IMG/VR virus record: IMGVR_UViG_3300027833_000013
Coordinates: 62,001 to 126,000 of that record
Reading direction: 5' to 3' (one strand)
Length of the DNA: 64,000 nucleotides
Source: a virus
The notes under the pieces were generated by a model. The model ran no database searches, was not told the DNA's origin, and saw only the letters and a program-made list of their open reading frames with translations. Below are positions 32,201-64,000 of this stretch, one piece after another. A program made the translations under genes and the position numbers. Position 1 is the first letter of the stretch. Each line of letters starts with the position of its first letter.

Positions 32201-32736
32201 GTTACGGCGCTGAGTTAGATAAGATTAAAAGTATTAGTGACGAAGTAATATACCATCCAGTAAAGTACAAAATACTTTTTGGATCAGCCGCGGAGAATAG
32301 TTTGCAAGCAACGTTTAAAATTGTTAAAAATACAGAAACTGTATCCAACGATAATGAAGTAAAGTCAAATGTAATTAATGCAATGAATGAATATTTTAGT
32401 TTGGAAAACTGGGAGTTTGGTGAATCATTTTACTTCTCAGAACTCTCAACTTACATAATGAATCAACTTGCACCTTCAATTAGTTCTATAGTAATTGTTC
32501 CAAGCGACGACTTACTATCATTTGGATCGTTGTATGAAATAAACTCAGAATCTGATGAAATTTTCATAAGTGGTGCAACTGTAGAAAATGTAGAAATAAT
32601 AGATACTATTACTGCAACTAAACTAAAATCCTCAGGCACTGTTATTACAGCAAGCACTGAAGTTTCAAATACTGGAATACAAAGTTCGAGTACTGCATAT
32701 ACGTCCACTATCAACACCGGAGGCTCGAGCTACTAA
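29260..32736 (+). CDS. 6: Baseplate wedge subunit gp6
   Basis: A 1,158-aa protein. The N-terminus carries the wedge signature: MIAYLRTNYPEDFNDYIESS and LIDLIAFLGQNISFRIDLNA, then ENFLELAERRESVLRLARLL (about 83-102), as in gp6/J-like proteins. Downstream are SDRISLVFSDGTFGELPQGV (about 342-361) and SSTSETNESIKQNAPSTYYT (about 407-426), also typical. In T4 gp6 (660 aa) dimerises to form the inner ring of the baseplate. This form is nearly twice as long; the extra sequence is mainly a beta-rich insertion between about residues 530 and 900. The stop overlaps the next start (TAATG), coupling it to the giant gene. Confidence 0.93.
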   Translation: MSTTDRQNRLLVAENWKRIYQSFRNADFQSYDFDNLRRTMIAYLRTNYPEDFNDYIESSEYLALIDLIAFLGQNISFRIDLNARENFLELAERRESVLRLARLLSYNPKRNQAAQGLLKVTSVSTTEEVVDSNNFNLANQQIQWNDPTNTDWYEQFIKVMNSALPANGTFGRPLKKEIVDGVPNEQYRFNAVNTDIPTYGFTKTVQGKSLQFEVVSTDLNTDTKNAEEEIPLTANSFAYLYKDDSRGPASSNTGFFCTFKQGSLDSGQFVVNTPTTNQVIDIDAANINNDDVWLYKLDASGQESEYWTKVDAVEGNNIIYNSVSKKIRSVYSVLTRVSDRISLVFSDGTFGELPQGVFKVFYRTSNNQSYVIKPTDMTGIQIKVPYLSRSNTVETITLNLELKYTVANSSTSETNESIKQNAPSTYYTQNRMVTAEDYNVAPLGISQDIIKVKSVNRFASGISRYYDLLDATGKYSSTNLYANDGIIYKENLVNKDSFTYITQTDIESAITNKIEPILKDRRVLNYYLTNFTKVITSDLKAEWVQTTSDTNRGTGHLIDESDVKYKVGTFTANNLRLLEAGSLLKFEAPTGYHFLVGDKTTLIAGAVGAPNTLMYKWVKVISVNGDGTTNTTSGLGPIVLNDSIPTQALLTEIRPKLTTSINDSVKVQIIDQAFANNTFGLRYDVGTRQWRLITEVNLDTISDFSTGKTGDVSSQNLDASWLLWFKTDGEKYNITYRAMRYVYESDNEIKFYYDSSDKIYDNKTGKIIKDKIQVLSINTQPMLTLPFTSDYNFEITKEYRDADGYVDSKKVEISFFDADDDGVVDNPGSFVDIVNETVSPTTKYIFQKKYTTTDGVEDYQYVTQTSQNILVLTSESAIGAYSSYDALTIFFAIDTGLFKQLSSDKLLLTQISNFKAFIGRADLKFRYVHAADNNKRIDPSSTNLIDTYLLTRLYDTSYRKWLNGDLTTKPLPPSSDQLYRSYGAELDKIKSISDEVIYHPVKYKILFGSAAENSLQATFKIVKNTETVSNDNEVKSNVINAMNEYFSLENWEFGESFYFSELSTYIMNQLAPSISSIVIVPSDDLLSFGSLYEINSESDEIFISGATVENVEIIDTITATKLKSSGTVITASTEVSNTGIQSSSTAYTSTINTGGSSY

Positions 32737-38700: not shown

Positions 38701-41700
38701 TCGGAACTGATTCAGCACCAACAGTTACTGAAGCGTTTTACACTGTTTCAGATGTTTACAATAATACAATTGAAATTACTTCAGATAATGCTGATTGGCA
38801 AAAAGTTGAAACACTAACTAACATCAACGGAATAATTACAAAATTTATATCTCAGCGTGTTGCTACATTAGCAACAGCAAATGATTTAAGTACTACTAAT
38901 TTAAAGTCTTTAGAGGTTATATGGGTAGACGATGACGATACTGGCAAGTGGAGAGTAATTAAAAATTCTCCAGTATATTCACAAGCACAGACACTTAAAA
39001 GTTCTTTGTCATTAGACAGTACTCAGCATAACTTTGGACATAGTATTGCTGTAAACAAATCTAATACGTTGTTAGCAGTTGGTATTCCTGATAAAGGCAA
39101 TGGCGAAGTACATGTGTTTAAGCGCAGTAGTGATGCAAACAATTTAGTATTTGATCAAACTATTACAGCACCAACGTCATACGTTGATACATATGACGGT
39201 AGTACTGAAGTTACATCTCAGAAGTTCGGCGAGAGTGTTTCATTTAGTCCAGATGGCAAATATTTAATTATTGGTTCTCCGCATGCAAGTAACGTAAAAA
39301 CTGCATACAAAGGCGACTACGTTCCCGGAAGTGACTATAACAAAAATGAAATTATTAAGTTTGGACCCAACTTGTTTAAAGCAGTTGCGGTAATTGACGG
39401 AGCAGTTGATTCTATTCCATATACAACATTTGATTCGTATCCGAATTTAGTGTCAGAGACTGATAGTACTACACTTAACTTATTACAAACAGGCAACTAT
39501 AAACTTAATAGCAAGCCTAATACTACACATATACTAGTTAGAGCACCTAAGGAAGCATACGAAGGTTCAAAAACTGGCGACAATATTGTATTAAAGTGGA
39601 ACAACTACAGTAACATAAACACACAAGGATGCAATGTATCAGTTGAGCCGTTTGATGGACAGTTCCCTGAAATTACAGGCGCATTATTGTCTGACATTCA
39701 TCCTATTGTAGCAAAAGTAGAAAACGTATTATATATTGCAAACTTTCAAAACTTACCAGGCATAGGACAAACAGTAAACAGTGCAGTTGCAAGTGGGACA
39801 GTTTCTTATGTAGGTGACAGTGACGGCGCTGCCGTTGTATATGTTTCTGACGTTAATGGTACATTTGCAGAAACAGGACAAATAGCAATTGGTAATATTG
39901 CAATTGGAGATTATACAGAAGATTATCAAAATCCGACAGCAGAAGTTGGCGGATATTGGATGATAACTACCCCTGCATACGAAACAGCGGCAGATAGTTC
40001 AAATGTATTTACTGATCCAGGACACGGATTAATATATCAAGACATTATTAAGCAAGACTCTGCTAGAACACCTAACTATTATTACAATATACAAGACACT
40101 ATTCAAGCTATTGGGGCAAAGGTATCTGCAAATGATCAGGCTTCGTTTATTGAAAGCTTCACATATGAAGGTGACCCAAATGAAGTATTTGCTGTACAGG
40201 AATCTAACAAATGGGCAATACGTGTTCCTAAAGCATTTTCAGATACTAAAACAGCCGGCGATCAATTTTATCTTTTCTTAGATGATCAGAGTGGAATAGT
40301 TGATTTAGCAGGTACTGCATTTACTTTTGATATTACAAACAAGCAACATACTATTAATGAAGTGCTTGACGGCTACATTGATTTTGTGTTTGACAACTTT
40401 AGTACAGTAACACAGTTACCGTTTGAACCTGCAATAGGCGACATAGTACGTGATGCATCCAGCGGTGCAACGGCTGAAGTAGCATTTTACAAAAGACAAT
40501 TTAATGACATACGAATTTATGTTAAAAATGTTACAGGTGCCTGGAGCTTAGGCGACACTTACGGACAAACAGCAGACATTATTAGAAATGGCACGCCAAA
40601 CAGAACAATGGGCGAAATCAAAGCAGTATCACTTGGCTCTTCAGAAGTTGGCAAGATTTTTGTTATTGAAGAAACTAGTAATTTTGCAAGTGTTGCAACT
40701 ACACAACTACTTGATAAAGAATACTGGATTTACGATGAAATTATATTACAGGGTATTGCAAGAAGTGCAAACGTACCGTCAAGTAATAACAATGATTGGA
40801 AACAAGTTAACAACATTCTTGCAAGTAATTCATCAAATGCATCTGCAAGCGGACTACTACAAGAAGGTATGATATCTGTTTATACATTAAATGAAATAGC
40901 ACAATTTGATTATGATAGTTCGTATGTAATACCAGAAAGACAAAATTATAAAAGATTTGGCGACGAAATACAAATAACACAAACTGGTACTGGAGTAAAG
41001 GCATTATACAGAGTTGCAGTAGCTTCCGGCGGAAACGCTACAGAATCTAACCCGGGTAGCATACATTTTATTAAACACGGATCGTCTAATACTGTAGGAA
41101 ATACATACGAAACATACCAATGGCAGTTAGACATTAATCCTTTGTTTAAAGGACAATTTACTTCAACAGTGTTTTACAAAGTAAATGAAATTGTTAATTA
41201 TAACGGCATTTTATATAGTGCAAAAATTAACATTGCAAGCGGATCGGCATTTGTGCCAAGTAGTTGGACAGAACTATCTAACACAACTACGCATGTTGGA
41301 TATATTCCTAGTACTCCGGAACAGCTATTGATAGGCGAAGACATTTACTCACCAGAGGGCGGAATTAGAGACTTTGCTCAAAAGTTTGATCAAGACGACG
41401 CAGGCGAAGTATTAATTACAAGTACTAAAATACAAGGTAATGATAGTACAGGCGAAAGAGCAGTTAATGTATATAGACAAGTTAATGGACAATTTACTAT
41501 ATCACAAACAATTACATCACCGTATATTGACGTAAGTACAGATACTCTTACAGGATATGCTGATGCAATAGCAATTAGTGCAGATGGTACTATGATTGCA
41601 ATAGGCGAACCGTATAACAATTCAATTGAAATTCAGCAAGGTAAAGTGTATCTTTATAAATTAACTAACGGTACATTTACATTATCACAGACATTGTTCA

Positions 41701-44700
41701 GTCACAATAATGAAGTAGCAGAACAATTTGGCAGTGCTGTTGGATTTGATGGCAATCAGTTAGCAGTAACATCGTTACAAGGCGACATTGAGATAGCTAC
41801 AACATACGATGCCGATACAACATACTTTGATAATAAGTTTACTAACTTTAAGAAAGTAAACATGGATAGCGGAGTTATTTACATATATGAAAGAATTAAC
41901 AATACTCTAGTATATGCAGAACAATTTATATTTGATGATTATGATTCAATGTTGTTTGGTAAAAATTTATTAGTAAGTAATAACCATGTGTATGCAAGTA
42001 TGCCTAGAATGACAGACTATACTACATATCAAGGTATGGTTGTTGATTATAGAAAAGTATTGGGTAAAACAGCATGGGTTACACACAGAAGCCCATTAGA
42101 TCAAGTTGACTTAACTAATATAAAAAGTGCATTCCTGTATAACACTAAAACTAATACATTAATTTCAGATATTGATATTATTGATCCAGTACAAGGAAAA
42201 ATTCCAGGCACAGCAGAACAAGAATTAAGCTTCAAAACATATTACGATCCGGCATCTTACAATGTAGGAGATGCTAGTGTTGTAGTAGATAAATTAGCAA
42301 GTTGGACCAACAATACAGTAGGCAAATTATGGTGGGATTTAAGTGCAGTTAAGTACTACAACTACTACCAAAATGATATTACATACCAGACTAACTTTTG
42401 GGCAGAAGTATTTCCAGGCACATCTATTGATGTGTATGAGTGGGTAGAATCAAATATTATTCCAAGTGAATGGGATTCGATAGCAGATACAGAACAAGGC
42501 ATTGCATCTGGTATAAGTGGATTAAGCAAGTACGGCGATACGATATACAGTCAAGCACTAGTATGGGACAACATTGCCGCAACGTCAACAGTAAAATACT
42601 TCTTCTGGGTGCTAAACAAGCGTACAATTCCAAATGTAGATTTTAGATTATTATCAGCACAACAAGTACAGACGCTTATTAAAGACCCTGCAGGTTCGGG
42701 ATATAAATTTGCCGCACTTATGTCTAAAGATAGATTTGCGTTGTTTAACGTATCTAATTTAATTAATAATAAAGATGTTGCACTTAATATACGTTATTGG
42801 ACTACAGAAAATAAAAATCAAAACGTACATAATGAATATCAATTAATATCACAGGGTGTTGCAAATAGCAAACCTAATAAAGATATTGAACGCAAATGGT
42901 TTGATAGTTTAATTGGGTATGATATTAAAGATAGACTAGTTCCAGATCCTTCTTTAAGTGTTAAAACAAAATATGGAATTCAAGACAGGCCAAGACAGGG
43001 TATATTTGTAAACCGTGAAGAAGCCCTAAAGCAAGTGGTTGAAAGAGTTAACGATACTTTGAAAAAACATATTATTGTTGATGAATTTGATATTAGTAAT
43101 TTAGTTAAGAGTGATCCAGCACCTGCCAATAGTACATTATTGTTTGATGCAGTAATTGAAACATTTGAAGATTTACAGTTCTTGGGAATAGCAAACAAAA
43201 CAATACCGACATTAACACCTACTATTACTGATGGAGAAGTTGTACAAGTATTAATTACTGCAACTGGTAGAGGATACATTGATCCTTCATATGTTAGCGG
43301 GACTAGAAAAGGTCCAAAAATTACTGTTAACGGTATTGGCACAGGAGCAGAAGTTGAATGTACATTAAATGAACTAGGACAGATTGCTACTGTTAATATT
43401 ATTAACGCAGGTGAAGGGTACGATGAAAATACAACACTAACTGTAAGAAATTTTGCCGCTTTAGTTACAACAGATTCAAATGTTTCAAATAAGTGGAGCA
43501 TATACGATTTAGTTGATAATAAGTGGGTAAGACGTGTAAGTCAGCGTTATGATACAAACTTATACTGGAAATATGCAGACTGGTATGCACCAGGGTATAA
43601 TAACTTTACGGCAGTGGTTGATTTAATCTCAGCAAGTTATTTGTTAGATAGTTTAGTTGATAACGACATTGGTGACACAGTAAAAATTGAGAACGTCGGA
43701 TCCGGCGGTTGGCTATTACTTGAAAAAATTGATAACCAGATTAATGTTGATTACACTGTGAACTATAAGACAGTTGGCAAACAAAATGCAACTATACAAT
43801 TTATTGATACGTTATATAATGTTAGTAAAAGTAAAATAGGATTTGATAGTAATAACTATGATACTGTGTTCTTTGATGCACAGCCTGTTACTGAAACTAG
43901 AATAATACTTGAAACAATTAGAGATAATTTGTTTGTTGATAATTTAGAAGCAGAGTATAATACATTATTCTTGGCTAGTGTCAGATATGCATTCAGTGAA
44001 CAACCAAATATTGACTGGGCGTTTAAAACTAGCTTTGTAAAAGCACAACATAACTTAGGTGATCTTGCACAAAAAGTTACATTTAAAAATGATAACTTAG
44101 AAAGCTATCAAACTTATATAAACGAAGTCAAGCCATATAAAACTAAGGTTAGAGAATACGTAAGTTCGTTTACTAATACAGACCTTACTAGTACTACAAC
44201 TGCTGACTTTGATTTATCACCCAAGTATGATGTTGCAGAAGGCAAGATAACAGCGTCTAATGCAAAAGTATCAAGCACTAATGTTTATGGTGAAAGAGAT
44301 GTATCTTCATATCCAGACAAACATTGGTTTGATAATGTTGGTTACAAAATTACAAGTGTTGATATTGGTAATAAAGGAACTGCATATACATTGCCCCCAG
44401 TAGTTAAGTTTGAAGGCGGCGGCGGCACAGGTGCTACTGCAAAGGCGTTCTTAAATAATGGTAAGTTAAGTGAAATAAAAATATTAACACAAGGTAGTGG
44501 ATATATTAGCGCACCAACAGTAGTACTTGACGGTGGCCTGAGTGATACAGGAACAATTGGCAGGGCAACTGCAATACTAGGCAATGGCGTAGTTAGAGGT
44601 ACTAAAGTTTCGTTTAAATTTGATAGAGTAAGCGGAGTACCTTATATTACTACACTAGCTACAACAGAAACTTTTAATGGAACTGGTAGTAAATTTAACT

Positions 44701-52043: not shown

Positions 52044-53513
52044 ATGGCATACACAATTAATAGATACGCAGGTACTACTTTAGCTACTGTACAAGACGGA
52101 ACAGTAGATGCAACTTCCGATTTACGGTTTGTAGGTAAGAACTATGCAGGTTACGGTGAAATACAGAATGAAAACTTCTTATTCTTACTTGAAAATTTTA
52201 GTGGAGCATCACAACCACCAAAGGCTATATCAGGACAAGTTTGGTATGACAGTGCAGTACAAAAATTAAAGTTTTATAATGGTACTAAATTTAAAAATAC
52301 CGGCGGAGCAGAAGTATCGGCGACACAGCCAGTTGGATTAACATCAGGCGACTTTTGGTGGGATAGTGGTAACAATCAGTTATATGCATATGACGGAACA
52401 TCATTTATATTAGTAGGACCACAAAGTACAGGTAGTGGCGTTACACAGATGCAAAGTAAAACTGTTAAAGATACTACGTCAACAAATAGAAGTGTTATTG
52501 CCGCGACAATTAACGATGAAGTAGTTTATTTAATCAGTAGTATTGAATTTACTATTGATAGTACAGATGCATCAAATGCAATTACAGGATTTGATGTAGT
52601 TAAGAAAGGCCTTACTTTAATTAACACTACAGTGGCCACAAACGGAGTTACAAGTTCTGATCATGTGTATCATGGCACGTCATCAAACGCATTAAGATTA
52701 GGTGGAAATTTAGCAAGTGATTACTTACTAAGTTCTTCAGGTTCATTTACAGATGTTGTACGTTTTGCAGATACTGGATATTCAGTAGGCGATAGTAATG
52801 ATTTGCTTATTAAAATTGAAAATGGTAATGACGGTGTAATTGGCAACCAAGTGGGCACTAACAGTATTATTAAAATAAAAGCTAATAATGCATCAGGTTC
52901 ATTAACTCATTCTGCAACATTTACAGCATTAGGAATGACCCCTGCAAGTACTAACGCATTTGACATCGGAGCGTCGGGCAATGTATGGGCTAACGTTTAT
53001 GCAACAAACTTACAAGGTAATGCAACAACTGCAAGTGCTTTAAAATTAAGCGGAACTGTATATACTCCAAATGCTTCGGCAATTGCAAATACAGCGGCAA
53101 TTAGAGATGCATCAGGTAACTTAACAGCAAACTTATTCCAAGGCATTGCAACACAAGCACGTTATGCTGACTTAGCAGAGAAATACACAACAACAGAAGA
53201 ATTGCCAGCAGGTACAGCAGTAGCAGTAGGCGGCGAAGCAGAAGTTCAACCAGCAGTAGCAAGTAATCATTGCATTGGAGTTGTTTCAACTGATCCGGCA
53301 TACATGATGAACAGTGAAGCAGAAGGTCAATATATTGGACTTAAAGGACGTTTACCAGTAAGAGTAAAAGGCCTTGTTAAAAAAGGCCAAGCTGTATATG
53401 CATTAGACAATGGTGTATGTACTACACTTTCAACAACGGCACTGGTAGGAATTGCACTTGAGTCAAGTGATGACATAAACGAAAAATTAATCGAGTGTGT
53501 TTTAAAAGTATAA
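52044..53513 (+). CDS. Tail fibre (paralogue 3) with ADLAEKY-type C-terminal domain
   Basis: A 489-aa protein. The N-terminal module again: RFVGKNYAGYGEIQNENFLF, SGASQPPKAISGQVWYDSAV, then TSGDFWWDSGNNQLYAYDG. The C-terminal third starts ARYADLAEKYTTTEELPAGT near 372 and continues with CIGVVSTDPAYMMNSEAEGQ and GLKGRLPVRVKGLVKKGQAV. This domain is common at fibre C-termini, and related forms in other phages act as intramolecular chaperones or autoproteolytic G2-type domains. Whether it self-cleaves is not clear from the sequence. It is read from a late box 25 bp upstream and is probably co-expressed with the two preceding fibres. Confidence 0.8.
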   Translation: MAYTINRYAGTTLATVQDGTVDATSDLRFVGKNYAGYGEIQNENFLFLLENFSGASQPPKAISGQVWYDSAVQKLKFYNGTKFKNTGGAEVSATQPVGLTSGDFWWDSGNNQLYAYDGTSFILVGPQSTGSGVTQMQSKTVKDTTSTNRSVIAATINDEVVYLISSIEFTIDSTDASNAITGFDVVKKGLTLINTTVATNGVTSSDHVYHGTSSNALRLGGNLASDYLLSSSGSFTDVVRFADTGYSVGDSNDLLIKIENGNDGVIGNQVGTNSIIKIKANNASGSLTHSATFTALGMTPASTNAFDIGASGNVWANVYATNLQGNATTASALKLSGTVYTPNASAIANTAAIRDASGNLTANLFQGIATQARYADLAEKYTTTEELPAGTAVAVGGEAEVQPAVASNHCIGVVSTDPAYMMNSEAEGQYIGLKGRLPVRVKGLVKKGQAVYALDNGVCTTLSTTALVGIALESSDDINEKLIECVLKV

Positions 53514-53551: not shown

Positions 53552-54448
53552 ATGGCGGTAGGCGACTTAATTACAGCGGCACGATATAATAACGCACAAG
53601 CGCGGGTGGCTGCGATTATGGGAGTTGGTGCCACTACTGAAGGATACGGACAAACGTTAGAAAGTTCTCAAGTTAGTACTGCATTAACAGTAACAGCAGA
53701 ACATATTAATGATTTGTATACTGATATTATTAGCGGCAGAATACACCAAACTGGTGCTACTCCTAACAGTATAACACAAATTGTTGTAGGCAATACTATT
53801 GCTGATGCAACTAGTGATGATCCAGACGGAACTGCCAAAGGCTTCCAAGATTACGAAGACTTAATAGCAATACTTGAAGCATCGCCAGGTAGATTTGCAC
53901 TAAGTGCATCACAATCGACTAGCGGAACTGGTGTTACTAGTTCTAGAACAGCACAGTGGAACACAGATGTGTCGACTGTTGTGCGTGTTGATTTTTCATC
54001 ATCGGATGCACGTAGAAATTATTTTAATGCCGGTAGCACAATTAAGTTTGAAGCATCATTAACAAGTCAAAGCGGATCAAAATCTAACGATTGGGCAAGT
54101 ATGTTAACTAATATGGGCACAATTGCAATGGGGTATACTGCTACTACTACAACTGGTACAGGAACAACTAGTTCAATTGGCAATTTTGATCTAACTGGAA
54201 CTAATCAAGTAATATTCCGTAAGCCAGGAACAGGTGTTTACTCTGCAAACGATTATTATGTTTATGCAAAAGCAAACTCAGCTACACAATTAGAATTTAC
54301 AATACTATTCCAAGAAGAAGCGGCAGGTAATCCAAATATCGACGAACAAGTAAACGGTACACTAACTAGTACAGTTAAGTTTACTCGAGCAAGTGGATCA
54401 TATGTTACTACACCAGCACCGAGCTTTGTTACTGTAACTTCACTTTAA
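53552..54448 (+). CDS. Putative virion structural protein closing the late fibre module
   Basis: A 298-aa protein. The N-terminal half is helical (MAVGDLITAARYNNAQARVA, EHINDLYTDIISGRIHQTGA); the C-terminal half is beta-rich with VVRVDFSSSDARRNYFNAGS near 145 and TGVYSANDYYVYAKANSATQ near 228. The 'ARRNYFNAGxxI.F' phrase is one I know from small structural proteins of marine myophages. No enzymatic motif is seen. It is read from its own late promoter. The next gene is separated by a sigma70 promoter, so this is the last gene of the late unit. Confidence 0.7.
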   Translation: MAVGDLITAARYNNAQARVAAIMGVGATTEGYGQTLESSQVSTALTVTAEHINDLYTDIISGRIHQTGATPNSITQIVVGNTIADATSDDPDGTAKGFQDYEDLIAILEASPGRFALSASQSTSGTGVTSSRTAQWNTDVSTVVRVDFSSSDARRNYFNAGSTIKFEASLTSQSGSKSNDWASMLTNMGTIAMGYTATTTTGTGTTSSIGNFDLTGTNQVIFRKPGTGVYSANDYYVYAKANSATQLEFTILFQEEAAGNPNIDEQVNGTLTSTVKFTRASGSYVTTPAPSFVTVTSL

Positions 54449-54504: not shown

Positions 54505-54840
54505 ATGGACGAACGACTAGAAAAAGCATTAGCTGTTAGTAAAGCATTAGAAACACATCAAAATCAAAAAAATATTCTTCATAAGCAGTATAAAGATAAT
54601 TTACTCTATTACTTTGATGGACATAAAGTTAGTGTAGACCTTTCTTTAATTAGTTACTGTACTAATAGAACAGGACCTGTAGTTATTATAGACGATAACA
54701 AGACTCCGACACTTATTGATAACGTTGAAGAATTTAATAAAAAAATAACAGCAATGTACGACACTGCAACACGTAAATACCTTGTTGAATTTAAAAAGAT
54801 TAAATCAAAAAGGTCAGTAGAGGAATTAATCGACCTATGA
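54505..54840 (+). CDS. Small protein of unknown function, first gene of accessory operon
   Basis: A 111-aa protein with a charged helical start (MDERLEKALAVSKALETHQN), a central beta region (LLYYFDGHKVSVDLSLISYC, about 32-51; TGPVVIIDDNKTPTLID, about 55-71) and a basic helical C-terminus (FKKIKSKRSVEELIDL). No known motif is seen. Its ribosome site, CTAAGGAGTAACT, is strong and its stop overlaps the next ATG by four bases. Its lead position suggests an accessory or regulatory role for the enzymes that follow, but nothing in the sequence shows it. Confidence 0.65.
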   Translation: MDERLEKALAVSKALETHQNQKNILHKQYKDNLLYYFDGHKVSVDLSLISYCTNRTGPVVIIDDNKTPTLIDNVEEFNKKITAMYDTATRKYLVEFKKIKSKRSVEELIDL

Positions 54841-55685
54841 CTCAAGGCGTATTGTTATTTGCATATAATTCTAAACATATGGATTATACAAAACAAGCTA
54901 TATATTGTGCAAAACTTATCAAAGAATACCTTGGTAAGGAAGTTGCACTAGTAACTGATAACGAAGAATATATTCAACGTCAATATCCGTTTTATACAAA
55001 GTATATAGATCATGTTATTACAACTGGTCATGAGGATAATGTACAAGAGCGTGTGTACAATGACGGACTGTATCACAGTGATCGCCAACGTTGGTATAAT
55101 ACTAATAGAAGCTCATGTTTTGAATTGACTCCGTTTGACGAAACACTTGTAATAGATACAGATGTTTTAATTTTTAATGACGAATTAAATAGATGCTTTG
55201 ACTCGACAGAAGATTTTCTAATATCTAAAGATTATAACTTTGTTGATATGAAGCGCGACTATTCAGAGTTTAATAAAGTGTCTGATACAACATGTGATAT
55301 GTTTTGGGCAACTGCATTTTATTTTAAAAAAACTGCATTTACAAATGTATTTTTTGATCTTATCGAACACATTAAAGAAAATTGGCATTTCTATAGACTA
55401 GTATATGAAGTTGTAGAAGTTAAGTTTAGAAACGATTATGCATTTAGCATAGCAATACATATGCTTCGAGGCATGAAAGACGCAACTTGGCCATCCCGTG
55501 TTCCTGCAAGCATTTGGATTACTGTAGATAAAGACATACTACATTCAATAAACGATACTAAATTAACCGTGTTATTACACAAAGAATACGACTATCAAGC
55601 AAGTGCAATTTGTGATGCTAATGTACACGTAATGAATAAGTTTTCATTAGAACGTTGCATTGACAAGGTATTTGAAAATGAGTAA
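54837..55685 (+). CDS. GT-A-fold glycosyltransferase-like protein 1
   Basis: A 282-aa protein. It begins with a nucleotide-binding-type strand (TQGVLLFAYNSKHMDYTKQA) followed by VALVTDNEEY, then a DxD-type metal/sugar-nucleotide motif, LVIDTDVLIF with D107 and D109. A YNTNRSS block precedes it, and MFWATAFYFKKTAFTN and FRNDYAFSIAIHML follow, where GT8-like enzymes have acceptor and second aspartate segments. No signal peptide or membrane helix is visible, so it acts in the host cytoplasm. The 279-aa neighbour has the same plan. Donor and acceptor are unknown. Overlap with the preceding gene is 4 bp, with the next 8 bp. Confidence 0.75.
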   Translation: MTQGVLLFAYNSKHMDYTKQAIYCAKLIKEYLGKEVALVTDNEEYIQRQYPFYTKYIDHVITTGHEDNVQERVYNDGLYHSDRQRWYNTNRSSCFELTPFDETLVIDTDVLIFNDELNRCFDSTEDFLISKDYNFVDMKRDYSEFNKVSDTTCDMFWATAFYFKKTAFTNVFFDLIEHIKENWHFYRLVYEVVEVKFRNDYAFSIAIHMLRGMKDATWPSRVPASIWITVDKDILHSINDTKLTVLLHKEYDYQASAICDANVHVMNKFSLERCIDKVFENE

Positions 55686-56517
55686 CGGTGTATGTTTACT
55701 AGCACAAAATAACGATACTACTGATTATATTAGACAAGCCTACGCACTTGCATTAAGCATTATTGCAAAGTCTCCTAAACAAAAAGTAAGCCTTATTACT
55801 AATGACAGTGTGCGTGACAAATACAGAAAAGTATTTGATCAAATCATTCCTATTCCTTGGGACGATAGTGCAACTAAAAGTAACTGGAAAATTGAAAATA
55901 GATGGAAAGTTTATCATGCAACACCTTACAGAAATACTATAGTATTTGATGTTGACATGCTAGTATTAGAGGATTTAGACATATACTGGAATCAGTTACA
56001 AAAAAATAATGTTGATCACGATATACTTTTTACTACGCAAGTGGTCAATTATAGGAACGAGCCTGTAACAAGTAGGTATTATAGAAAAACATTTGATGCA
56101 AACAACTTGCCTAATTTATATTCAGGAATGTATTACTTTAAAAAAGCAGAAACTACAAAACAATTTTTTGGCTTGCTAAAAACTGTTATGTGGAATTGGG
56201 GCGACTTTTACAAGATCAGTCTAAGTAAAATACCTCAAGAATGGTGTAGCTTTGATGTGTGTACTGCAATAACTGCAAAGTTATTAGATAGGACATACAC
56301 TATCGGAGACAACAATAATATTCTTGAGTTTACCCATATGAAATCGAGATTACAGAATGTTGATATTGATGATAAATGGACTAAGTCTCTTTTTGTAGAT
56401 TTTAATAAAGATCTTAATTTAATAGTTGGCGGAATTAAGCAGTCAGGAATATTTCATTATGTTGAAGATGAATTCTTAACAGACGAAATAGTTAGTATAC
56501 TAGAGGAAGCAATATGA
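55678..56517 (+). CDS. GT-A-fold glycosyltransferase-like protein 2
   Basis: A 279-aa protein starting at the ATG at 55678 (MSNGVCLLAQNNDTTDYIRQ). An in-frame ATG six codons upstream lies deeper in the previous gene. It shares the plan of the preceding protein: VSLITNDSVRDKY, then TIVFDVDMLVLEDL with D91 and D93, LYSGMYYFKKAETTKQFFGL near 147 and EWCSFDVCTAITAKLL near 190. The FDxD motif suits a metal-dependent nucleotide-sugar transferase. Two adjacent paralogues may add different sugars in sequence. It is translationally coupled on both sides. Confidence 0.75.
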   Translation: MSNGVCLLAQNNDTTDYIRQAYALALSIIAKSPKQKVSLITNDSVRDKYRKVFDQIIPIPWDDSATKSNWKIENRWKVYHATPYRNTIVFDVDMLVLEDLDIYWNQLQKNNVDHDILFTTQVVNYRNEPVTSRYYRKTFDANNLPNLYSGMYYFKKAETTKQFFGLLKTVMWNWGDFYKISLSKIPQEWCSFDVCTAITAKLLDRTYTIGDNNNILEFTHMKSRLQNVDIDDKWTKSLFVDFNKDLNLIVGGIKQSGIFHYVEDEFLTDEIVSILEEAI

Positions 56518-57140
56518 GTTACTATGCGTATTACAATGAAAAATGCGAAGTTACACAGATATCTAATGAGCCAGATCTGTCTACGAACGACATGTATATT
56601 TTAATTGATGAAGAAATGTTTATTGCATTTGCTAATGAAAAAATTAATTATATCAATTATAAAGTTATAAGCGGAAAGTTAACACTTAAAGCAGAAATTG
56701 AATTAGAAAAATATACTGACTCAAGAATCCCAATTGAACTTACTGATACATTAATAGAAAACTGCATGGTAGTAACACAAGATAAAAAAAATAAACATTG
56801 GTTTGCACAGTGTTATCTTAGTAGTGATGTTATAGAAAACTTTCTACTTATGCCAAAAGAACAAATTGAAAAAAAGATATTTACATTTTATGTAACAGCA
56901 AAAGACAACAGATTTATTTTACTTGATACAATAAAAATACCTGCAAAGTTTGTCCTCACAAAGAATGAAGGATGGCACACTGAAGCAACTAGTGCAGATA
57001 CTGGAGATGTGGTTGAAGTATTTACTGCACCGGCGTATACTATACCTAATATAGACAAAGAAATAGTAACTCAGGATGTTAGATTACTCGTCAGAAGAGA
57101 CTTTTTAACCTATCATCATAAAGTAGGAGAACTTACATGA
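56514..57140 (+). CDS. Unknown protein in the accessory operon
   Basis: A 208-aa protein that I do not recognise. The N-terminal part (MSYYAYYNEKCEVTQISNEP; DMYILIDEEMFIAFANEKIN) looks like a small beta-sheet domain of the type seen on phage-encoded accessory proteins. The middle and C-terminal parts are beta-rich (VIENFLLMPKEQIEKKIFTF near 120; IVTQDVRLLVRRDFLTYHHK near the end). No cysteine cluster or catalytic motif is visible. It overlaps both neighbours by ATGA junctions and is therefore expressed with the glycosyltransferases. A binding or scaffolding role is a guess. Confidence 0.6.
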   Translation: MSYYAYYNEKCEVTQISNEPDLSTNDMYILIDEEMFIAFANEKINYINYKVISGKLTLKAEIELEKYTDSRIPIELTDTLIENCMVVTQDKKNKHWFAQCYLSSDVIENFLLMPKEQIEKKIFTFYVTAKDNRFILLDTIKIPAKFVLTKNEGWHTEATSADTGDVVEVFTAPAYTIPNIDKEIVTQDVRLLVRRDFLTYHHKVGELT

Positions 57141-58057
57141 AAATTATAGATTATGATATTATATACTTGTCATACGACGAGCCAAACGCAGAAAAAAACT
57201 ATGCAGACCTATTAAGTAAAGTGCCTTGGGCAAAACGGGTGCATGGTGTAGAAGGCAGTGATGCCGCACACAAAGCATGTGCAAACCTAAGTGAAACAGA
57301 TCGTTTTATTACAGTAGATGGCGACAACATTATTAATGCAGAGTTTTTAGGACAAGAACTTGACTTTGATGATCATGCAGATTTAGAACACAGTGTAATT
57401 AGTTGGTGCGGCAGGAATATAATTAACGGATTAATGTACGGCAATGGTGGATTAAAATGTTGGCCAAAGCAGTATGTGTTAGATATGAAAACACATGAAA
57501 ACGCAGAAGCAGACAACCCGCATGCACAAGTTGACTTTTGCTGGGATCTAAAATACATACAGCAAAACAGTTGGTATAGCGATGTACATAATAATGAAAC
57601 TGCACTACAAGCATGGAGGGCAGGGTTCCGTGAAGGTGTTAAGATGTCATTAGATCAAGGAGTGCGACCAACTAAAGAAGCTTTCTTACAAGGCCATTGG
57701 AAAAACTTACATAGGTTGTGGGTGTGGTTAATGGCAGGCGCTGATGTAGAAAATGGACTATGGGCTATTTATGGTGCTCGAGAAGGATTATATATGACAA
57801 TGTGTACAGATTGGGATTATGTACAAGTTAGGGATTTTGAATATTTAAACGAGTACTGGAATAAAACAGTTAGTGTATATATAAATGACGACAACTTGTT
57901 AGAATCAATTCAACGGTTAGGCAACAGTCTTATTGATGAATTAGAAATACCCATTGCTAAGAATCCTTTAGATGCACAACAAAGTAAGTTCTTTAAAGAA
58001 GTTTACCAGAATCCGAGTAGGAATGCACGACAACAGTTTGTGATTGATCCTGAATGA
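57137..58057 (+). CDS. GT2-like glycosyltransferase candidate
   Basis: A 306-aa protein. Its start IIDYDIIYLSYDEPNAEKNY and WAKRVHGVEGSDAAHKACAN (about 31-50) match the opening of GT2-type nucleotide-diphospho-sugar transferases, and DRFITVDGDNIINAEFL (about 55-71) supplies the D-x-D equivalent DGD. The block HAQVDFCWDLKYIQQNSWYS near 135 and many Trp residues later (HWKNLHRLWVWLMAGADVEN) are unusual for the family. Similar proteins occur in marine myophages. No membrane segments are seen. It sits between the unknown 208-aa protein and the first radical SAM gene with ATGA overlaps on both sides. Substrate unknown. Confidence 0.7.
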   Translation: MKIIDYDIIYLSYDEPNAEKNYADLLSKVPWAKRVHGVEGSDAAHKACANLSETDRFITVDGDNIINAEFLGQELDFDDHADLEHSVISWCGRNIINGLMYGNGGLKCWPKQYVLDMKTHENAEADNPHAQVDFCWDLKYIQQNSWYSDVHNNETALQAWRAGFREGVKMSLDQGVRPTKEAFLQGHWKNLHRLWVWLMAGADVENGLWAIYGAREGLYMTMCTDWDYVQVRDFEYLNEYWNKTVSVYINDDNLLESIQRLGNSLIDELEIPIAKNPLDAQQSKFFKEVYQNPSRNARQQFVIDPE

Positions 58058-59424
58058 GTAACGAACAACGTATAGAAGAATTAAAACTAAAAAAAGATCT
58101 AATAAATTCTGTTAGTTGTAGTTTCTGTACGGCTAAGTGGTTACAAACAACCCTTATGTTACAAAATGGATATAACCATAGTTGCCATCACCCGGCACCG
58201 CATAAAATTCCATTAGAAGAAATAGAAGCAGATCCCGCAGCCTTGCACAATAGTAAGTTTAAAAAAGAACAACGTGCTATGATGTTAAAAGGTGACCGCC
58301 CTTCGGAATGTGATTACTGTTGGAAGATTGAAGATTTAGACAAAGATTATTTTTCAGACAGACATTATAAAACAGCAGACAACTGGGCATGGGACAGATT
58401 TGAAGATATTGCTAAAAGCAATCCACAAGATAATGTATATCCTAGTTACTTAGAAGTTAGTTTTTCAAATGCTTGTAATTTTGCATGTGCTTACTGCTCG
58501 CCTGAAATTAGCAGTAAGTGGATGGAAGATATAAAACAAAACGGTGAGTATCCGGACGGTGCTCATAACTTAGATTATTTAAAGCAAGCTGGAAAATTTC
58601 CATATGCAAACAACGAAGACAATCCGTATGTAACAGCATTTTGGAAATGGTTTCCTGATGCACTTCCGCATTTAAAAGTTCTACGTATTACAGGCGGCGA
58701 ACCTACAATGAGTAAAGATACTTGGAAGTTATTAGATTACATAATTAATAATCCACAACCTCAATTAGAAATTGCAGTTAATACAAATTTAAATGTTCCA
58801 GCAAAGCTAATAGATAAATTAATATACTATAGCGGCGAGCTTGAAGGTAAACTTAAAAAGTTTGACATATACACAAGTGCTGAAGCAGTTGGTGACCAAA
58901 ATGATTATGTAAGAGATGGGATGAATTACAAAGTTTGGATGACTAATGTACATCGTATGTTGTATGAAACTAATAGTACTGTAGCAATAATGACAACTAT
59001 TAATATTTTAAGTTTGCCTAGCTTTGCTAAATTTATACAAGACGTTATGGAACTTAGAAAAGATTACAATTTAAATTTTGAACACAATAGAATTCCGTTA
59101 AGCATTAACTATCTTAGATGGCCTTTGCATTTACAAACTATACTATTAGATAAAGAACAACGTGTAAAGTACGCTAATGAAATTGAGAGTACATGCGAGT
59201 CTTGGCTCAAATATTACAGTAAAGAAAAATATGCTAGAATTTACTTAGAAGAATTTGATCAAATAAAACGGTTGTGTAACTATCTTAGAAACACAGAACC
59301 AGCTATTCAGTATCGTGGTAACTTTTGCAGATATATACATGCATACGATAAGCGTCGAAACAAAAACTTTAAAGATACTTTTCCAGAGTACTCAACATTA
59401 TTAGAGGATTGGCATGCCAGCTAA
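58054..59424 (+). CDS. Radical SAM protein 1 with N-terminal auxiliary cysteine cluster
   Basis: A 456-aa protein. The canonical CxxxCxxC is CNFACAYC (C141, C145, C148), with LRITGGEPTMSKDTW (GGEP) near 222. An N-terminal cysteine set, C22, C25, C44 (SCHHP), C86 and C89 (SECDYCWKIED), comes before the radical SAM core; twitch/SPASM enzymes usually hold auxiliary iron-sulfur cysteines after it. These enzymes cleave SAM to start radical chemistry on peptides, sugars or small molecules. Here they follow glycosyltransferases, so sugar or peptide modification is plausible. It is about 40% alike by eye to the next gene in its first 150 residues. The 11-bp overlap with the next gene couples them. 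Confidence 0.88.
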   Translation: MSNEQRIEELKLKKDLINSVSCSFCTAKWLQTTLMLQNGYNHSCHHPAPHKIPLEEIEADPAALHNSKFKKEQRAMMLKGDRPSECDYCWKIEDLDKDYFSDRHYKTADNWAWDRFEDIAKSNPQDNVYPSYLEVSFSNACNFACAYCSPEISSKWMEDIKQNGEYPDGAHNLDYLKQAGKFPYANNEDNPYVTAFWKWFPDALPHLKVLRITGGEPTMSKDTWKLLDYIINNPQPQLEIAVNTNLNVPAKLIDKLIYYSGELEGKLKKFDIYTSAEAVGDQNDYVRDGMNYKVWMTNVHRMLYETNSTVAIMTTINILSLPSFAKFIQDVMELRKDYNLNFEHNRIPLSINYLRWPLHLQTILLDKEQRVKYANEIESTCESWLKYYSKEKYARIYLEEFDQIKRLCNYLRNTEPAIQYRGNFCRYIHAYDKRRNKNFKDTFPEYSTLLEDWHAS

Positions 59425-60859
59425 AGAAGATGAAACATTGCTACAGTACAGGCAACGTATAATAGATCCAAAGAGTACTAGCTTCTGTGGTGCAAAATGG
59501 TTTAATGCAACTACTTGGTTAGGTAGTGGCACAACTGCTAGTTGTCACCACCCGCCGGCACATCAGATTCCATTAGAAGAAGTAGAAGAAAACTACACAG
59601 CAATTCACAACACTAAACATAAGAAAGAGATGCGTAGGCAAATGCAAACGGGCGAACGCCCTGCAGAGTGCGAGTATTGTTGGAAAATGGAAGATATGAA
59701 AAAAGATGCAGTAAGTGATCGCACCTTTAAAACTATTATCTATACTGACGAAGAACTACAGGCTGCATATGATGCAGACTGGAATGAAAACACAGGTCTT
59801 AAAACGTTTGAAATTGCGTTTGATAGAACTTGTAACTTAGCGTGTTCGTATTGCAATGCTAGTTTTAGTACTACATGGGCAAAAGATATTAATAAGAATG
59901 GTCCTTATGAAAACTTAGTCAGTGATGGCGCAGGTGCGTTTAAACACAATGGTGATTGGGCCGCTCCGTACGATAATGATGCAGACAATCCTTATATACA
60001 GGCATTTTGGAAATGGTGGGATAACGGCCTTGCAGATAGTTTAGATGAACTACGCATTACAGGTGGCGAACCACTAATGAGCGGCAACACTTGGAAACTA
60101 TTTGATTGGTATTCTAAACAGAAATCAGATATGCGATTTGCTATTAACTCGAACTTAATTGCAAAAGAAAGCATTATTAATAAGTTGATTGAAAAAGCCC
60201 AAGGAATTAAAAAGTTCCACATTTATACTAGCTGTGAAGCAGTTGGTGAACAGGCTGAATACATCCGGGACGGGTTAGTTTACGATCAATGGGTAAACAA
60301 CGTAACACGTATTTTAGATGAAACTGACGTAGAGCTACATTGCATGATGACTATTAATAGTTTATGCTTGTTTAGTATTACAGAATTTCTTGATCAAATC
60401 TATACGCTAAAAGAACGTACAGGAACAAAAACGCCGACAGTAAGTTTAAACTTATTACGTTTTCCAAGTTTCCAAAGTCCTTTAGCATTGCCAGTACATC
60501 TTAAAGATTATTGCTACAATAAACTAAATGATTGGTATAACGTAAACAAGCACAAAGCGTTATGGCACGAGCATGAAAAAGCAAGCATCGAACGTTTAAT
60601 AGATTATCTAGTTACTGTAGATGCTCCGCATAGACGCACGAGCAATCCTGTAACACTATGGCGCGACTTTAAAACATTTTATCAGCAATATGATGTACGT
60701 AGAAATAAAAACATAAACGTGTTTCCAAAAATCCTAACAGATTGGATAGAAAGTATTCCTGATACAGATGCAAGTATTACAGAACTTGCAGAAAAAGAAG
60801 GATGGATATTAAATCCTGATAATAAGAATATTGCCAAAGGACTAGCAACATATGACTAA
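59414..60859 (+). CDS. Radical SAM protein 2 (paralogue of the preceding)
   Basis: A 481-aa protein with the same plan: N-terminal C25, C44 (ASCHHPPAHQIPLEE), C86 and C89 (AECEYCWKMED), then CNLACSYC (C140, C144, C147) and LRITGGEPLMSGNTW. In place of the first copy's CxxC it has only SFCGAKW, so one cysteine is absent. The TSCEAVGEQAEYIRDGLVYD block after residue 270 mirrors SAEAVGDQNDYVRDGMNYK in the first copy. Tandem duplication with divergence is evident. The two may act on different positions of one substrate or form a heterodimer. The C-terminus adds an extra segment ending GWILNPDNKNIAKGLATYD. Confidence 0.88.
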   Translation: MPAKEDETLLQYRQRIIDPKSTSFCGAKWFNATTWLGSGTTASCHHPPAHQIPLEEVEENYTAIHNTKHKKEMRRQMQTGERPAECEYCWKMEDMKKDAVSDRTFKTIIYTDEELQAAYDADWNENTGLKTFEIAFDRTCNLACSYCNASFSTTWAKDINKNGPYENLVSDGAGAFKHNGDWAAPYDNDADNPYIQAFWKWWDNGLADSLDELRITGGEPLMSGNTWKLFDWYSKQKSDMRFAINSNLIAKESIINKLIEKAQGIKKFHIYTSCEAVGEQAEYIRDGLVYDQWVNNVTRILDETDVELHCMMTINSLCLFSITEFLDQIYTLKERTGTKTPTVSLNLLRFPSFQSPLALPVHLKDYCYNKLNDWYNVNKHKALWHEHEKASIERLIDYLVTVDAPHRRTSNPVTLWRDFKTFYQQYDVRRNKNINVFPKILTDWIESIPDTDASITELAEKEGWILNPDNKNIAKGLATYD

Positions 60860-62105
60860 AGATAATTTTTGTGTAGCACCGTGGATGCATTTACACGTTA
60901 TTAACGATGGCCGGGCATTTCCTTGTTGTCAAACACCTTTAGAAGATAAACATGCATATGGCAATGTAAGAGAAACTGCAATACATGATATCTTAAACAG
61001 TACTAAAGCTAAAGGCATGCGCAAAGATATGTTAACAGGTGTGCCATTACCTTCTAGTTGTGAGCGATGCACATCTAAAGAAAAGCACGGATTTGGTAGT
61101 ATGCGCACTGGCATGAATCAAAAGTGGTTACCTCAAGTACAAGACGAAGTAGACGCAACTCATGCAGACGGAACAATAGACAATCCTGTAATTAAAAATT
61201 GGGATTATAGATTTAGTAACTTTTGTAATCTTGCTTGTCCAACTTGCGGTCCATTGTTCAGTACACAATGGCATGCTGATTATAAAAAATTATTTCCTGA
61301 CTATCCAATGACCGAAAAGGCACTAGTTGATCTAAAAGATGCAGATTTATTTTGGAGTGATTTTTCAAAATATGCTAACCATGCAAAAGAAATTCATATT
61401 GCAGGCGGCGAACCATTTATGATGCCCGAAAATAATAAAGTGTTAACTGCATTAGAACAAGAAGAAAATTACGATATTGCAATACGATATAGTACAAACT
61501 GTACAGTATTAAAGCAAGGAAAAGAAAATATTCTAGACCGATTACAGAAGTTTAGTTATATACATCTTAGTTGTAGTATTGATGCCGCAGGCGATGCTTT
61601 CGAATACATTCGATATAAAGGTAAGTGGGACGTTGTTTTAAATAATTTAAAAGAAATTAGACAAAGTGGCCACAACTATTGGATTCATCCTACAGTAAGT
61701 ATATTAAATATTTTTAGAATTACAGAGTTGCACGAAGAACTTTGGAACGCAGATATTATACCAGCAAAACGAGTACATTATAATGCCGACGGAACTGGTG
61801 CAGAATTTCACATAGAAAACTACTGGGTTGACAGGATGCACTTTAATCCATTATTTGTTCCTGAATATTATAGTATGACAATAATGCCAGCACACCTTAA
61901 AGAGCAGGCCGCCGATAAAATTACAACTTATGGCAAACGACTAGAGAAGGAACATAGTATTCCGTTCCATGGCTGGCAAGCCTTAATTGATTTTATGTAT
62001 CAGGCAGATGACAGTCATTTGTATGATGAATTTTTAAGTAAAACACACAATTTAGATAAATTACGTGGCAATGATTTTTATAAAATTAACAAGGAATTTA
62101 AATAG
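60852..62105 (+). CDS. Radical SAM protein 3 (twitch-type)
   Basis: A 417-aa protein. It begins with the 'FCxxPW...G...PCC' form: NFCVAPWMHLHVINDGRAFP (C7), then C25, C26 (PCCQTP) and C70, C73 (SSCERCTSKE), before CNLACPTC (C125, C129, C132) and IHIAGGEPFMMPENN near 195. This variant is the commoner phage/bacterial type annotated as twitch-domain radical SAM. It is more distant from the two preceding genes than they are from each other. The SCSIDAAGDAFEYIRYKGKW block near 240 matches the SAEAVGD...YVRDG block in copies 1 and 2. It overlaps copy 2 by 8 bp and the SGNH gene by one base. Confidence 0.88.
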   Translation: MTKDNFCVAPWMHLHVINDGRAFPCCQTPLEDKHAYGNVRETAIHDILNSTKAKGMRKDMLTGVPLPSSCERCTSKEKHGFGSMRTGMNQKWLPQVQDEVDATHADGTIDNPVIKNWDYRFSNFCNLACPTCGPLFSTQWHADYKKLFPDYPMTEKALVDLKDADLFWSDFSKYANHAKEIHIAGGEPFMMPENNKVLTALEQEENYDIAIRYSTNCTVLKQGKENILDRLQKFSYIHLSCSIDAAGDAFEYIRYKGKWDVVLNNLKEIRQSGHNYWIHPTVSILNIFRITELHEELWNADIIPAKRVHYNADGTGAEFHIENYWVDRMHFNPLFVPEYYSMTIMPAHLKEQAADKITTYGKRLEKEHSIPFHGWQALIDFMYQADDSHLYDEFLSKTHNLDKLRGNDFYKINKEFK

Positions 62106-63106
62106 TGAGTAAAAAAAGTAAGCTAGAAAAGGTATCTCAATCGCAACTAGCAAAGACCATAGTAACGAACAAGACAATACAGAAAGATAATTACGACAGT
62201 CCTGGTAGCGATTGGGATAATGTTTCCCACTTAGGGGTTGATCATCTAGATACATCAGCAGTTTCACCTTTTCGAGTTAAATCATTTGATGATCTTAGAA
62301 ACTATGGCCCGTGGCAACCACTGCACCTATTAAGAAAACGTGCAGGCGAAACTCGTGAGAATGTATCATTCGATGTGCCCTGGGTACACGAAACTGAAAT
62401 TCCATATCTTAAAGAACAGCCTTGGAAATATAGAATAAATGAATACGGATTTAGAGACGAATGGAAATTTAAAACTAAACGTGCAAACATAGGCTACTTT
62501 GGATGCAGTATGACATATGGTGAAGGCGTCGATACCCCAGATCTATGGAGTACTCATATAACAAATGCGTATAAGTTAACAGGGTTAAACTTTGGTGTAG
62601 GCGGCGCCGGTCCTTTGCGTGTAGCAAGAACATTTGCCGCAGTACAGCAAACAATGAAATTAAAGTATGCTATAATAATGCTACCACAAATCTCAAGAGT
62701 AGAACTATGGCAATACAACAATTATCAGCAACCAAAACAGCATCCTAGATTACATACTATAAACTTAATTCCTAATTTTCCACCTAGTCCTACAGATTTT
62801 ACGGGAGGAGATGACGTGTATAATGATTACTTTAAAGTTATGACAGATGAACAATCAATTAGTCAGTGTGTACAAGCGTGTAATTGGATAACTCAAACAG
62901 CAAGAGCAAACAAGACTCGGGTACTATTCTGTTCTTGGGATCCGTTTAGTTTATGGGCTATGCACAATGCAGGAGTTCCTAATTTGCATAATAAAATGTT
63001 TAAAAGGCTAGACTTAGGTAGAGATCAAATGCACCCGGGCCCGGAGTCTAATTTACAATTTAGTAAAAGTATAAGAAGGTGGATAGATGCTAACCCTTGG
63101 CTTTAG
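62105..63106 (+). CDS. SGNH/GDSL-type hydrolase
   Basis: A 333-aa protein from a GTG start at 62105 that overlaps the previous TAG. After about 105 residues of helical lead-in comes KYRINEYGFRDEW, then the nucleophile block NIGYFGCSMTYGEGV with S135. The Gly-type block LNFGVGGAGPLRVART follows near 158, and D307-x-x-H310 (GRDQMHPGPES) near the end completes an SGNH layout. Such enzymes are esterases or acyltransferases that often remove or add O-acetyl groups on glycans. No signal peptide is visible. Its place after glycosyltransferases and radical SAM genes suggests trimming of a glycan or glycolipid product. Confidence 0.8.
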   Translation: MSKKSKLEKVSQSQLAKTIVTNKTIQKDNYDSPGSDWDNVSHLGVDHLDTSAVSPFRVKSFDDLRNYGPWQPLHLLRKRAGETRENVSFDVPWVHETEIPYLKEQPWKYRINEYGFRDEWKFKTKRANIGYFGCSMTYGEGVDTPDLWSTHITNAYKLTGLNFGVGGAGPLRVARTFAAVQQTMKLKYAIIMLPQISRVELWQYNNYQQPKQHPRLHTINLIPNFPPSPTDFTGGDDVYNDYFKVMTDEQSISQCVQACNWITQTARANKTRVLFCSWDPFSLWAMHNAGVPNLHNKMFKRLDLGRDQMHPGPESNLQFSKSIRRWIDANPWL

Positions 63107-64000
63107 AAATATACACGGCGTTAGTACTAGTATTAATTTACTGCCAGATAACACCGAAACATCATTAGTATGGCAATCTGCATTAGACACTTTATTAGAA
63201 ACGCACAATGATAAAATATTTCAAAAGAACTTTAGTCTATTAGGACATCCTACACATAATAGATCTAAACAGCACATGATAAATGATCTAGAACGAAGTG
63301 TTAACATTGTAAACATACATACAGAATACGAAATTGACGAAGACTTTTCTACATTTGATCAAGAAACATTAAACAGATTGCATCATCATTTTGAAATATT
63401 ACAAGGACAACTTTGGAACCCCAGTTCATTTTTAACTACAGCGTCTGGAGAAGTGCGGTGTGCAATATGTTATTTAAATCATTGCTGTCATGAACTAGAA
63501 GCATATTATGATTCGTATGAAAAGGAATATACTAACTATAACGGTTATTTTTACTATAACTTGTTAGGTATAACAGATAGAACTGACATGCCGCTAGGAA
63601 TAAAAAAGCAATTTACTACTGACATAACTGACGGCATGGTATATTTACATTATGCTCAAACAGGTAAAACTTGGTACGAAGCATACTTAGATAACGATTT
63701 AGAAATAGACCCTAGCAATATATCAGAACATAGGGTTATCACAGGCGAATTTAATTTATACTCTGGACCAGGGTTTAGTTTTCCAACAGACAGTAATTTT
63801 ACATCATGGTTAGAATCAAAAAATGTAGATCCTAATGATTCTGATTTAGCATTAGGATATGCACCAGTTGCAACAGTAGATGTACCATATACTGAACTAC
63901 AAGAAATATTAAAAGAATACGATGACTTTCATAGTATTGAATTTAATGGTAAAAAAATTGAATATAACTATAGACATACCGACCTAGAGTATGTTATAAT
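63087..64000 (+). CDS. Unknown protein, partial (runs off right edge)
   Basis: The frame is open from the ATG at 63087 to the window end, 304 codons with no stop, overlapping the SGNH gene by 20 bp. It starts MLTLGFRNIHGVSTSINLLP. Visible text includes HNRSKQHMINDLERSVNIVN near 58 and LNRLHHHFEILQGQLWNPSS near 94, and VRCAICYLNHCCHELEAYYD near 122, which holds four cysteines and His residues that could bind metal. I recognise no family. It continues the accessory operon without a gap. Reading frame and codon use fit its neighbours. Confidence 0.7.
   Translation, partial: MLTLGFRNIHGVSTSINLLPDNTETSLVWQSALDTLLETHNDKIFQKNFSLLGHPTHNRSKQHMINDLERSVNIVNIHTEYEIDEDFSTFDQETLNRLHHHFEILQGQLWNPSSFLTTASGEVRCAICYLNHCCHELEAYYDSYEKEYTNYNGYFYYNLLGITDRTDMPLGIKKQFTTDITDGMVYLHYAQTGKTWYEAYLDNDLEIDPSNISEHRVITGEFNLYSGPGFSFPTDSNFTSWLESKNVDPNDSDLALGYAPVATVDVPYTELQEILKEYDDFHSIEFNGKKIEYNYRHTDLEYVI

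Follow-up and report, generated by a model that had tools for sequence, protein, structure and literature searches.

In the peptide and protein maturases SkfB, anSME and SuiB, all radical S-adenosylmethionine (SAM) enzymes of the SPASM/twitch kind, the domain that carries the auxiliary cluster lies at the C-terminus, with anSME and SuiB having a full SPASM domain and two auxiliary clusters; the twitch signature, CX9-15GX4C...CX2C, amounts to half of the SPASM signature (PMC6231123). BtrN (2-deoxy-scyllo-inosamine dehydrogenase; PDB 4m7s/4m7t), which acts on a free aminocyclitol, likewise carries its twitch at the C-terminus; its auxiliary cluster has a full set of four cysteine ligands, and its product is an aminocyclitol (PMC9012708). 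Here, we describe three tandem radical SAM genes (copies 1 to 3, hereafter c1, c2 and c3) in which the twitch is found at the opposite end of the chain. They lie in a stretch of 64,000 nucleotides (the window, to whose positions coordinates refer unless stated otherwise) that covers bases 62001-126000 of the 169,459-base IMG/VR record IMGVR_UViG_3300027833_000013. The source is an uncultured tailed phage and, judging from parallels with published marine phages, the record is probably marine.

A twitch domain ahead of the radical SAM core

From their sequences, all three open reading frames (ORFs) almost certainly belong to NCBIfam family NF033640 (N_Twi_rSAM, ‘twitch domain-containing radical SAM protein’), with the twitch domain placed ahead of a partial TIM barrel. 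Their scores are around two-fold above the curated cut-off of 170 bits and cover nearly the whole profile, whilst none of 14 control genomes holds a match above that cut-off. The genes and their predicted cluster sites are as follows (pLDDT, predicted local distance difference test, of AlphaFold2 models).

58054-59424, plus strand: c1, N_Twi_rSAM, 456 residues; NF033640 324 bits; pLDDT 92; opens the conserved c1-c2 pair
58126-58320, plus strand: c1 N-terminal twitch, C25-X13-G39-X4-C44...C86-X2-C89; predicted four-cysteine auxiliary iron-sulfur (Fe-S) site
58474-58497, plus strand: c1 radical SAM CX3CX2C motif, C141/C145/C148; invariant in 74/74
59414-60859, plus strand: c2, N_Twi_rSAM, 481 residues; NF033640 302 bits; overlaps c1 by 11 nucleotides (nt)
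59486-59680, plus strand: c2 N-terminal twitch, C25-X13-G39-X4-C44...C86-X2-C89; invariant in 59/59
59831-59854, plus strand: c2 radical SAM CX3CX2C motif, C140/C144/C147; invariant in 59/59
60852-62105, plus strand: c3, N_Twi_rSAM of another branch, 417 residues; NF033640 349 bits; pLDDT 92; reading frame overlaps that of c2 by 8 nt
60870-61070, plus strand: c3 N-terminal twitch, C7-X12-G20-X4-C25(C26)...C70-X2-C73; invariant in 42/42; aligns to the C-terminal twitch of BtrN
61224-61247, plus strand: c3 radical SAM CX3CX2C motif, C125/C129/C132; invariant in 42/42

The same order emerges from Pfam, which places SPASM at residues 7-74 of c3 (42 bits) and Radical_SAM at 120-276. An earlier note on this DNA had pointed to three tandem radical SAM ORFs with auxiliary cysteines in front of the CX3CX2C triad, and the cysteines are indeed where it placed them. 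It had also taken this order to be at odds with the usual C-terminal placement: the layout is genuine, yet it is already recorded, since it defines NF033640 and stands in the family’s name. Like the members of that family, c1-c3 have an N-terminal twitch followed by the radical SAM core, and nothing that we tested sets them apart from it. Neither NF033640 nor an N-terminal twitch is mentioned in any of the papers that our literature search found.

Conservation of the cysteines was counted in homologues drawn from 80 viral loci. When the N-terminal cysteines are aligned, as the earlier note had suggested, four prove to be invariant in each set: C25/C44/C86/C89 in 72/72 or 74/74 homologues of c1, the same four positions in all those of c2, and C7, C25, C70 and C73 in those of c3, where C26 is also invariant. 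Because this invariance extends to all three copies, the arrangement is not a matter of chance. The spacing is that of a twitch (C-X13-G-X4-C in c1 and c2, C-X12-G-X4-C in c3, and a CX2C in each), although its location is N-terminal rather than in a C-terminal extension as in BtrN, MoaA and SkfB. A full SPASM domain (CX9-15GX4C-CX2CX5CX3C-C, two auxiliary clusters) was considered and rejected, as the CX5CX3C element and the seventh cysteine are lacking after the CX2C; downstream of the core triad, no cysteine is conserved throughout the homologues. Similarly, C22 of c1 was dismissed as a fifth ligand, being Cys in only 29/72 homologues and lying outside the twitch signature. The observation that c2 lacks this early cysteine was therefore correct, whilst the divergence in cluster content that had been read into it does not follow; c2 appears from its sequence to carry the same front site as c1.

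A profile built from the N-terminal regions of c3 and its relatives, when searched against the PDB, retrieved just two sequences at E <= 1, both of them BtrN (E 3.3e-6). The match falls on the C-terminal twitch (residues 164-261 of 4m7s), and in the profile alignment C169/C187/C232/C235 of BtrN, which we take to be the ligands of its auxiliary cluster, are in register with the four N-terminal cysteines of the phage enzymes. BtrN is thus alike in twitch signature and cysteine register; it differs in having the twitch at the other end. The match also speaks, indirectly, for the convergence of these cysteines in space that the earlier note had foreseen. In AlphaFold2 models of c1 and c3 (mean pLDDT as listed above), the cores resemble those of anSME, SkfB, MoaA and BlsE, amongst others (Z 10-14), a comparison made with sequential aligners, which are blind to a permuted domain; the likeness to SkfB, anSME and SuiB lies in the core fold, and the difference in where the auxiliary-cluster domain sits. 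Amongst the predicted phage proteins of BFVD, matches cover nearly the full length of the c1 model (best TM 0.79/0.86).

The c1-c2 pair in viruses and bacteria

The first two copies are 38% identical and have SCHHP and EC(D/E)YCWK motifs in common, in line with the CHHP and ECxYCWK that had been noticed in both. A FastTree phylogeny places them together in one clade of 31 rows (14 of them bacterial) with c3 elsewhere, and so bears out the proposal that c1 and c2 are paralogues by duplication and c3 another branch; the deep forks of this tree are unsure, owing to long branches.

In viruses, the two genes behave as a unit: c2 directly follows c1 in 79/79 loci with a readable next gene, 70 of which show an overlap of 8 to 20 nt, and the paired loci range from 98% down to 44% identity on contigs of up to 524 kb. 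The NF033640 model, as seen, holds neither this strict pairing nor the distribution across viruses and Bdellovibrionota described below. Two viral layouts recur. The first runs fibre, 111-residue protein, two putative GT8s, a protein of ~200 residues, putative glycosyltransferase, c1, c2; in the second, which lacks fibre genes, up to ~seven N_Twi genes follow one another in tandem. In one viral contig (L035, 7367-8888) the c2 homologue is broken into two frames, through assembly error or decay.

The third copy keeps company with an SGNH-like gene in viral loci, and in L048 (4625-6724) a c3-type N_Twi_rSAM and an SGNH-like protein occupy one 699-residue frame, which may be a true fusion or the product of a lost stop. 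A single-sequence scan of viral contigs with c3 returned no relatives, such scans reaching close relatives only; c3-like genes were later found adjoining c1-c2 in viral loci. By tblastn against isolated phages, c1 had no relatives and c3 matched only 16 Vibrio records, at ~25% identity. N_Twi genes above the cut-off occur in every one of the 15 large records searched; family matches number 2 to 14 per record, a range that includes generic radical SAM cores below the cut-off.

A pattern-based genome scan recovered at least 61 bacterial loci with strong matches (L097-L157), and 48 of the 61 listed have Bdellovibrionota-type titles. Group 1 glycosyltransferases, an ABC transporter, a carbamoyltransferase, PqqD, an S74-chaperone protein and a prepilin-like protein are found amongst the neighbours, and the bacterial relatives often adjoin surface-polysaccharide genes. 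Nine bacterial rows of the tree fall in with the c2-type proteins, and in L139, a bacterial locus, c1-type and c2-type genes stand side by side; with both types present in Bdellovibrionota loci, the c1/c2 duplication is older than the viral radiation sampled. As side observations, PqqD, S74-chaperone and prepilin-like genes lie beside N_Twi_rSAM in predatory bacteria (L131, L136, L150 and others), and a stand-alone, 126-residue SPASM/twitch-only protein (L115, 1775-2152; Pfam SPASM 47.7 bits) belongs to a family of seven members in six Bdellovibrionota loci, near N_Twi_rSAM and often beside another radical SAM gene; this is possibly a split auxiliary-cluster protein.

Gene neighbourhood and the viral record

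The three copies sit within a run of overlapping genes that extends from 54505 to beyond the end of the window, which suggests a single operon. The genes on either side are listed here, all family and function assignments for the transferases being putative.

52044-53513, plus strand: tail-fibre protein (PHROG tail fiber, 3e-18)
53552-54448, plus strand: fibre/virion-like protein; family in 44 loci around c1-c2, syntenic upstream
54505-54840, plus strand: 111-residue neighbour of the fibre/virion-like protein; family in 43 loci around c1-c2, syntenic upstream
54837-55685 and 55660-56517, plus strand: two putative GT8-like transferases with DxD motifs; order kept in fibre-type viral loci
56514-57140, plus strand: 208-residue protein overlapping its neighbours’ frames; order kept in fibre-type viral loci
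57137-58057, plus strand: putative GT-A-like glycosyltransferase with a DGD motif; 4-nt overlap with c1
62105-63106, plus strand: SGNH/GDSL-like protein adjoining c3, with a GCSMTYGEG motif; family assigned by motif alone, no Pfam match
63087-63998, plus strand: partner in the c3 submodule, 315 residues, extending beyond the window end; family in 20 loci

The putative GT-A-like gene has no Pfam match; most viral loci of the fibre type have a homologue immediately before c1, and others are found near N_Twi_rSAM in two Bdellovibrionota loci (L122 and L153). Further upstream of c1-c3 come baseplate, virion structural and tail-fibre genes, including a 4933-residue ORF (32736-47537) that PHROG identifies as virion structural through a match to phrog_10938 (1031 bits, in four stretches) and that is possibly a VrlC-type baseplate protein. 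The sole tRNA in the window is a tRNA-Gly (tcc) at 4354-4427 on the minus strand.

This arrangement, which many of the viral c1-c2 loci share, is reminiscent of the ‘host recognition cluster’ described in marine T4-like phages (pelagimyophages and cyanomyophages), with its GT8s and radical SAM cassettes (Zaragoza-Solas 2020, PMC7029224). The published cluster is bordered by VrlC and gp14, and the 4933-residue ORF is a possible counterpart of the former. In both cases a variable island in the structural region combines radical SAM cassettes with tail-fibre and GT8-type transferase genes, and in the present record fibre genes, putative glycosyltransferases and Pfam-supported radical SAM genes stand beside a baseplate module; the two differ in that the baseplate wedge here is nearest to those of jumbo phages such as SCTP-2, Atu_ph07 and RaK2 (~36% identical).

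Downstream, an island encodes more radical SAM enzymes, QueC-like, methyltransferase-like and nitroreductase-like proteins and a class IV aminotransferase, as well as a tryptophan halogenase, an IMPDH-like enzyme and an AMP-binding enzyme. The halogenase-like gene (record 148147-149514; L014 5148-6515, plus strand; Pfam 253 bits) is followed by the IMPDH-like and short AMP-binding genes. After the island comes a NifU_N/IscU-like scaffold gene (record 158064-158483; L014 15065-15484, minus strand), ~81% identical to a gene of Phage C48C1 (Kyanoviridae); NifU_N was present in 3 of the 11 radical-SAM-rich viral records searched. A QueE-like radical SAM gene (record 161576-162472; L015 1577-2473, minus strand; phrog_2076, 169 bits) has GCNFRCMNFG in place of the CX3CX2C triad. 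The record’s last ORF has a DSGGFQ motif, from which a DpdA/TGT assignment was considered and then set aside, with no Pfam or PHROG match.

The full record has 12 Radical_SAM matches, of which five are above the N_Twi cut-off. This likens it in gene content to TARA_ERS488813_N000010, a T4-like marine genome of 183 kb which has 12 radical SAM genes together with Fe-S assembly genes (Nishimura 2017, PMC5332604), NifU_N/IscU being the counterpart here; the section of PMC5332604 on which this comparison rests singles out neither the N_Twi family nor the c1-c2 pair.

A model for the pair and its alternatives

We propose a model for how the pair might work. By homology, the CX3CX2C cluster would cleave SAM, and the 5'-deoxyadenosyl radical would abstract one of the substrate’s hydrogens. 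The N-terminal cluster, probably four-cysteine-ligated, would take the second electron, a role put forward for that of BtrN and observed for SuiB AuxI (PMC9012708), with a two-electron oxidation, be it a dehydrogenation or a cross-link, as the net outcome. Since the C-terminal twitch of SkfB packs beside core strand beta1 (PMC6231123), a twitch moved to the N-terminus could dock alike with little change in geometry. We suggest that c1 and c2 would form a matched pair, either as a heteromer or in two successive steps, that c3 would act together with the adjacent SGNH-like protein, and that the operon’s target would be a carbohydrate for host recognition: either a surface glycan of the host or one that decorates the fibres of the phage itself. 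A paired, BtrN-like two-electron oxidation, tailoring a surface glycan or fibre during infection, seems to us the most likely reading. It is the neighbouring genes that incline us to a glycan as the substrate, with a fibre or peptide as its main rival, and to the explanation as a whole, glycan included, we would give about an even chance.

Several observations pull the other way. Neither the literature searched nor the PDB offers a characterised N_Twi_rSAM member, and the PDB has no full-length relative; c1-c2 arrays occur without nearby fibre or glycosyltransferase genes in L051-L054, L071 and L089-L096; the glycan genes near the bacterial relatives come from a plain listing of neighbours; and a PqqD-like, peptide-binding partner near the bacterial relatives in nine loci points to a peptide.

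This last point leads to the alternative that survives best, one that we hold to be possible though distinctly less probable: that the pair and array are maturases akin to those of ribosomally synthesised and post-translationally modified peptides (RiPPs), for which a small peptide or one of the phage’s fibre proteins would be the substrate, altered through cross-linking, epimerisation or an oxidation of the Cys-to-formylglycine type. Characterised SPASM/twitch enzymes mostly act on peptides or proteins, the core fold matches include SkfB, anSME and SuiB, fibre genes adjoin c1-c2 in the phage, and the PqqD (Pfam 59.5 bits) found beside bacterial N_Twi_rSAM genes is accompanied by prepilin-like and S74-chaperone proteins in L131, L136 and L150. 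Those PqqD-linked genes, however, sit outside the c1/c2 clade, and PqqD is present in 0/11 viral records searched, some of which may be fragments; moreover, the N-terminus is taken up by the twitch, with no separate RiPP recognition element seen there, and next to the pair, where no systematic search was made, no short conserved ORF stood out as a precursor.

That the whole island encodes a soluble, antibiotic- or cofactor-like small-molecule pathway strikes us as quite improbable: its Pfam content (tryptophan halogenase, aminotransferase, nitroreductases, QueC-like proteins and an AMP-binding enzyme) would suit such a role, as would the aminocyclitol made by BtrN, but c1-c2 is kept where the neighbouring island genes differ. 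Least credible by far are transient passenger genes, functionless in the phage, for although island content varies strongly between relatives and c2 is broken in L035, the pair stands in every testable viral locus across the full range of identity, with every cluster cysteine invariant.

Returning to the tailoring of a glycan or fibre by paired oxidation, radical-SAM-rich marine phages and the front-twitch layout are already known, and what is fresher is a c1-c2 unit kept across viruses near fibre and sugar-transfer genes. The bolder claim, that a front-twitch pair shared as a unit by giant/T4-like phages and predatory Bdellovibrionota represents a new radical modification of host-recognition glycans or adhesive fibres, we consider unlikely as it stands. 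As a domain permutation that occurs in nature, the twitch at the front would test how the position of an auxiliary cluster, as against chain order, matters in disposal of the second electron; the strictly kept c1-c2 is also a clear first pair for expression. If the substrate does prove to be a surface glycan or a fibre, this would explain the purpose of the many ocean-phage radical SAM genes, a question left open in the papers that counted them (PMC5332604, PMC7029224).

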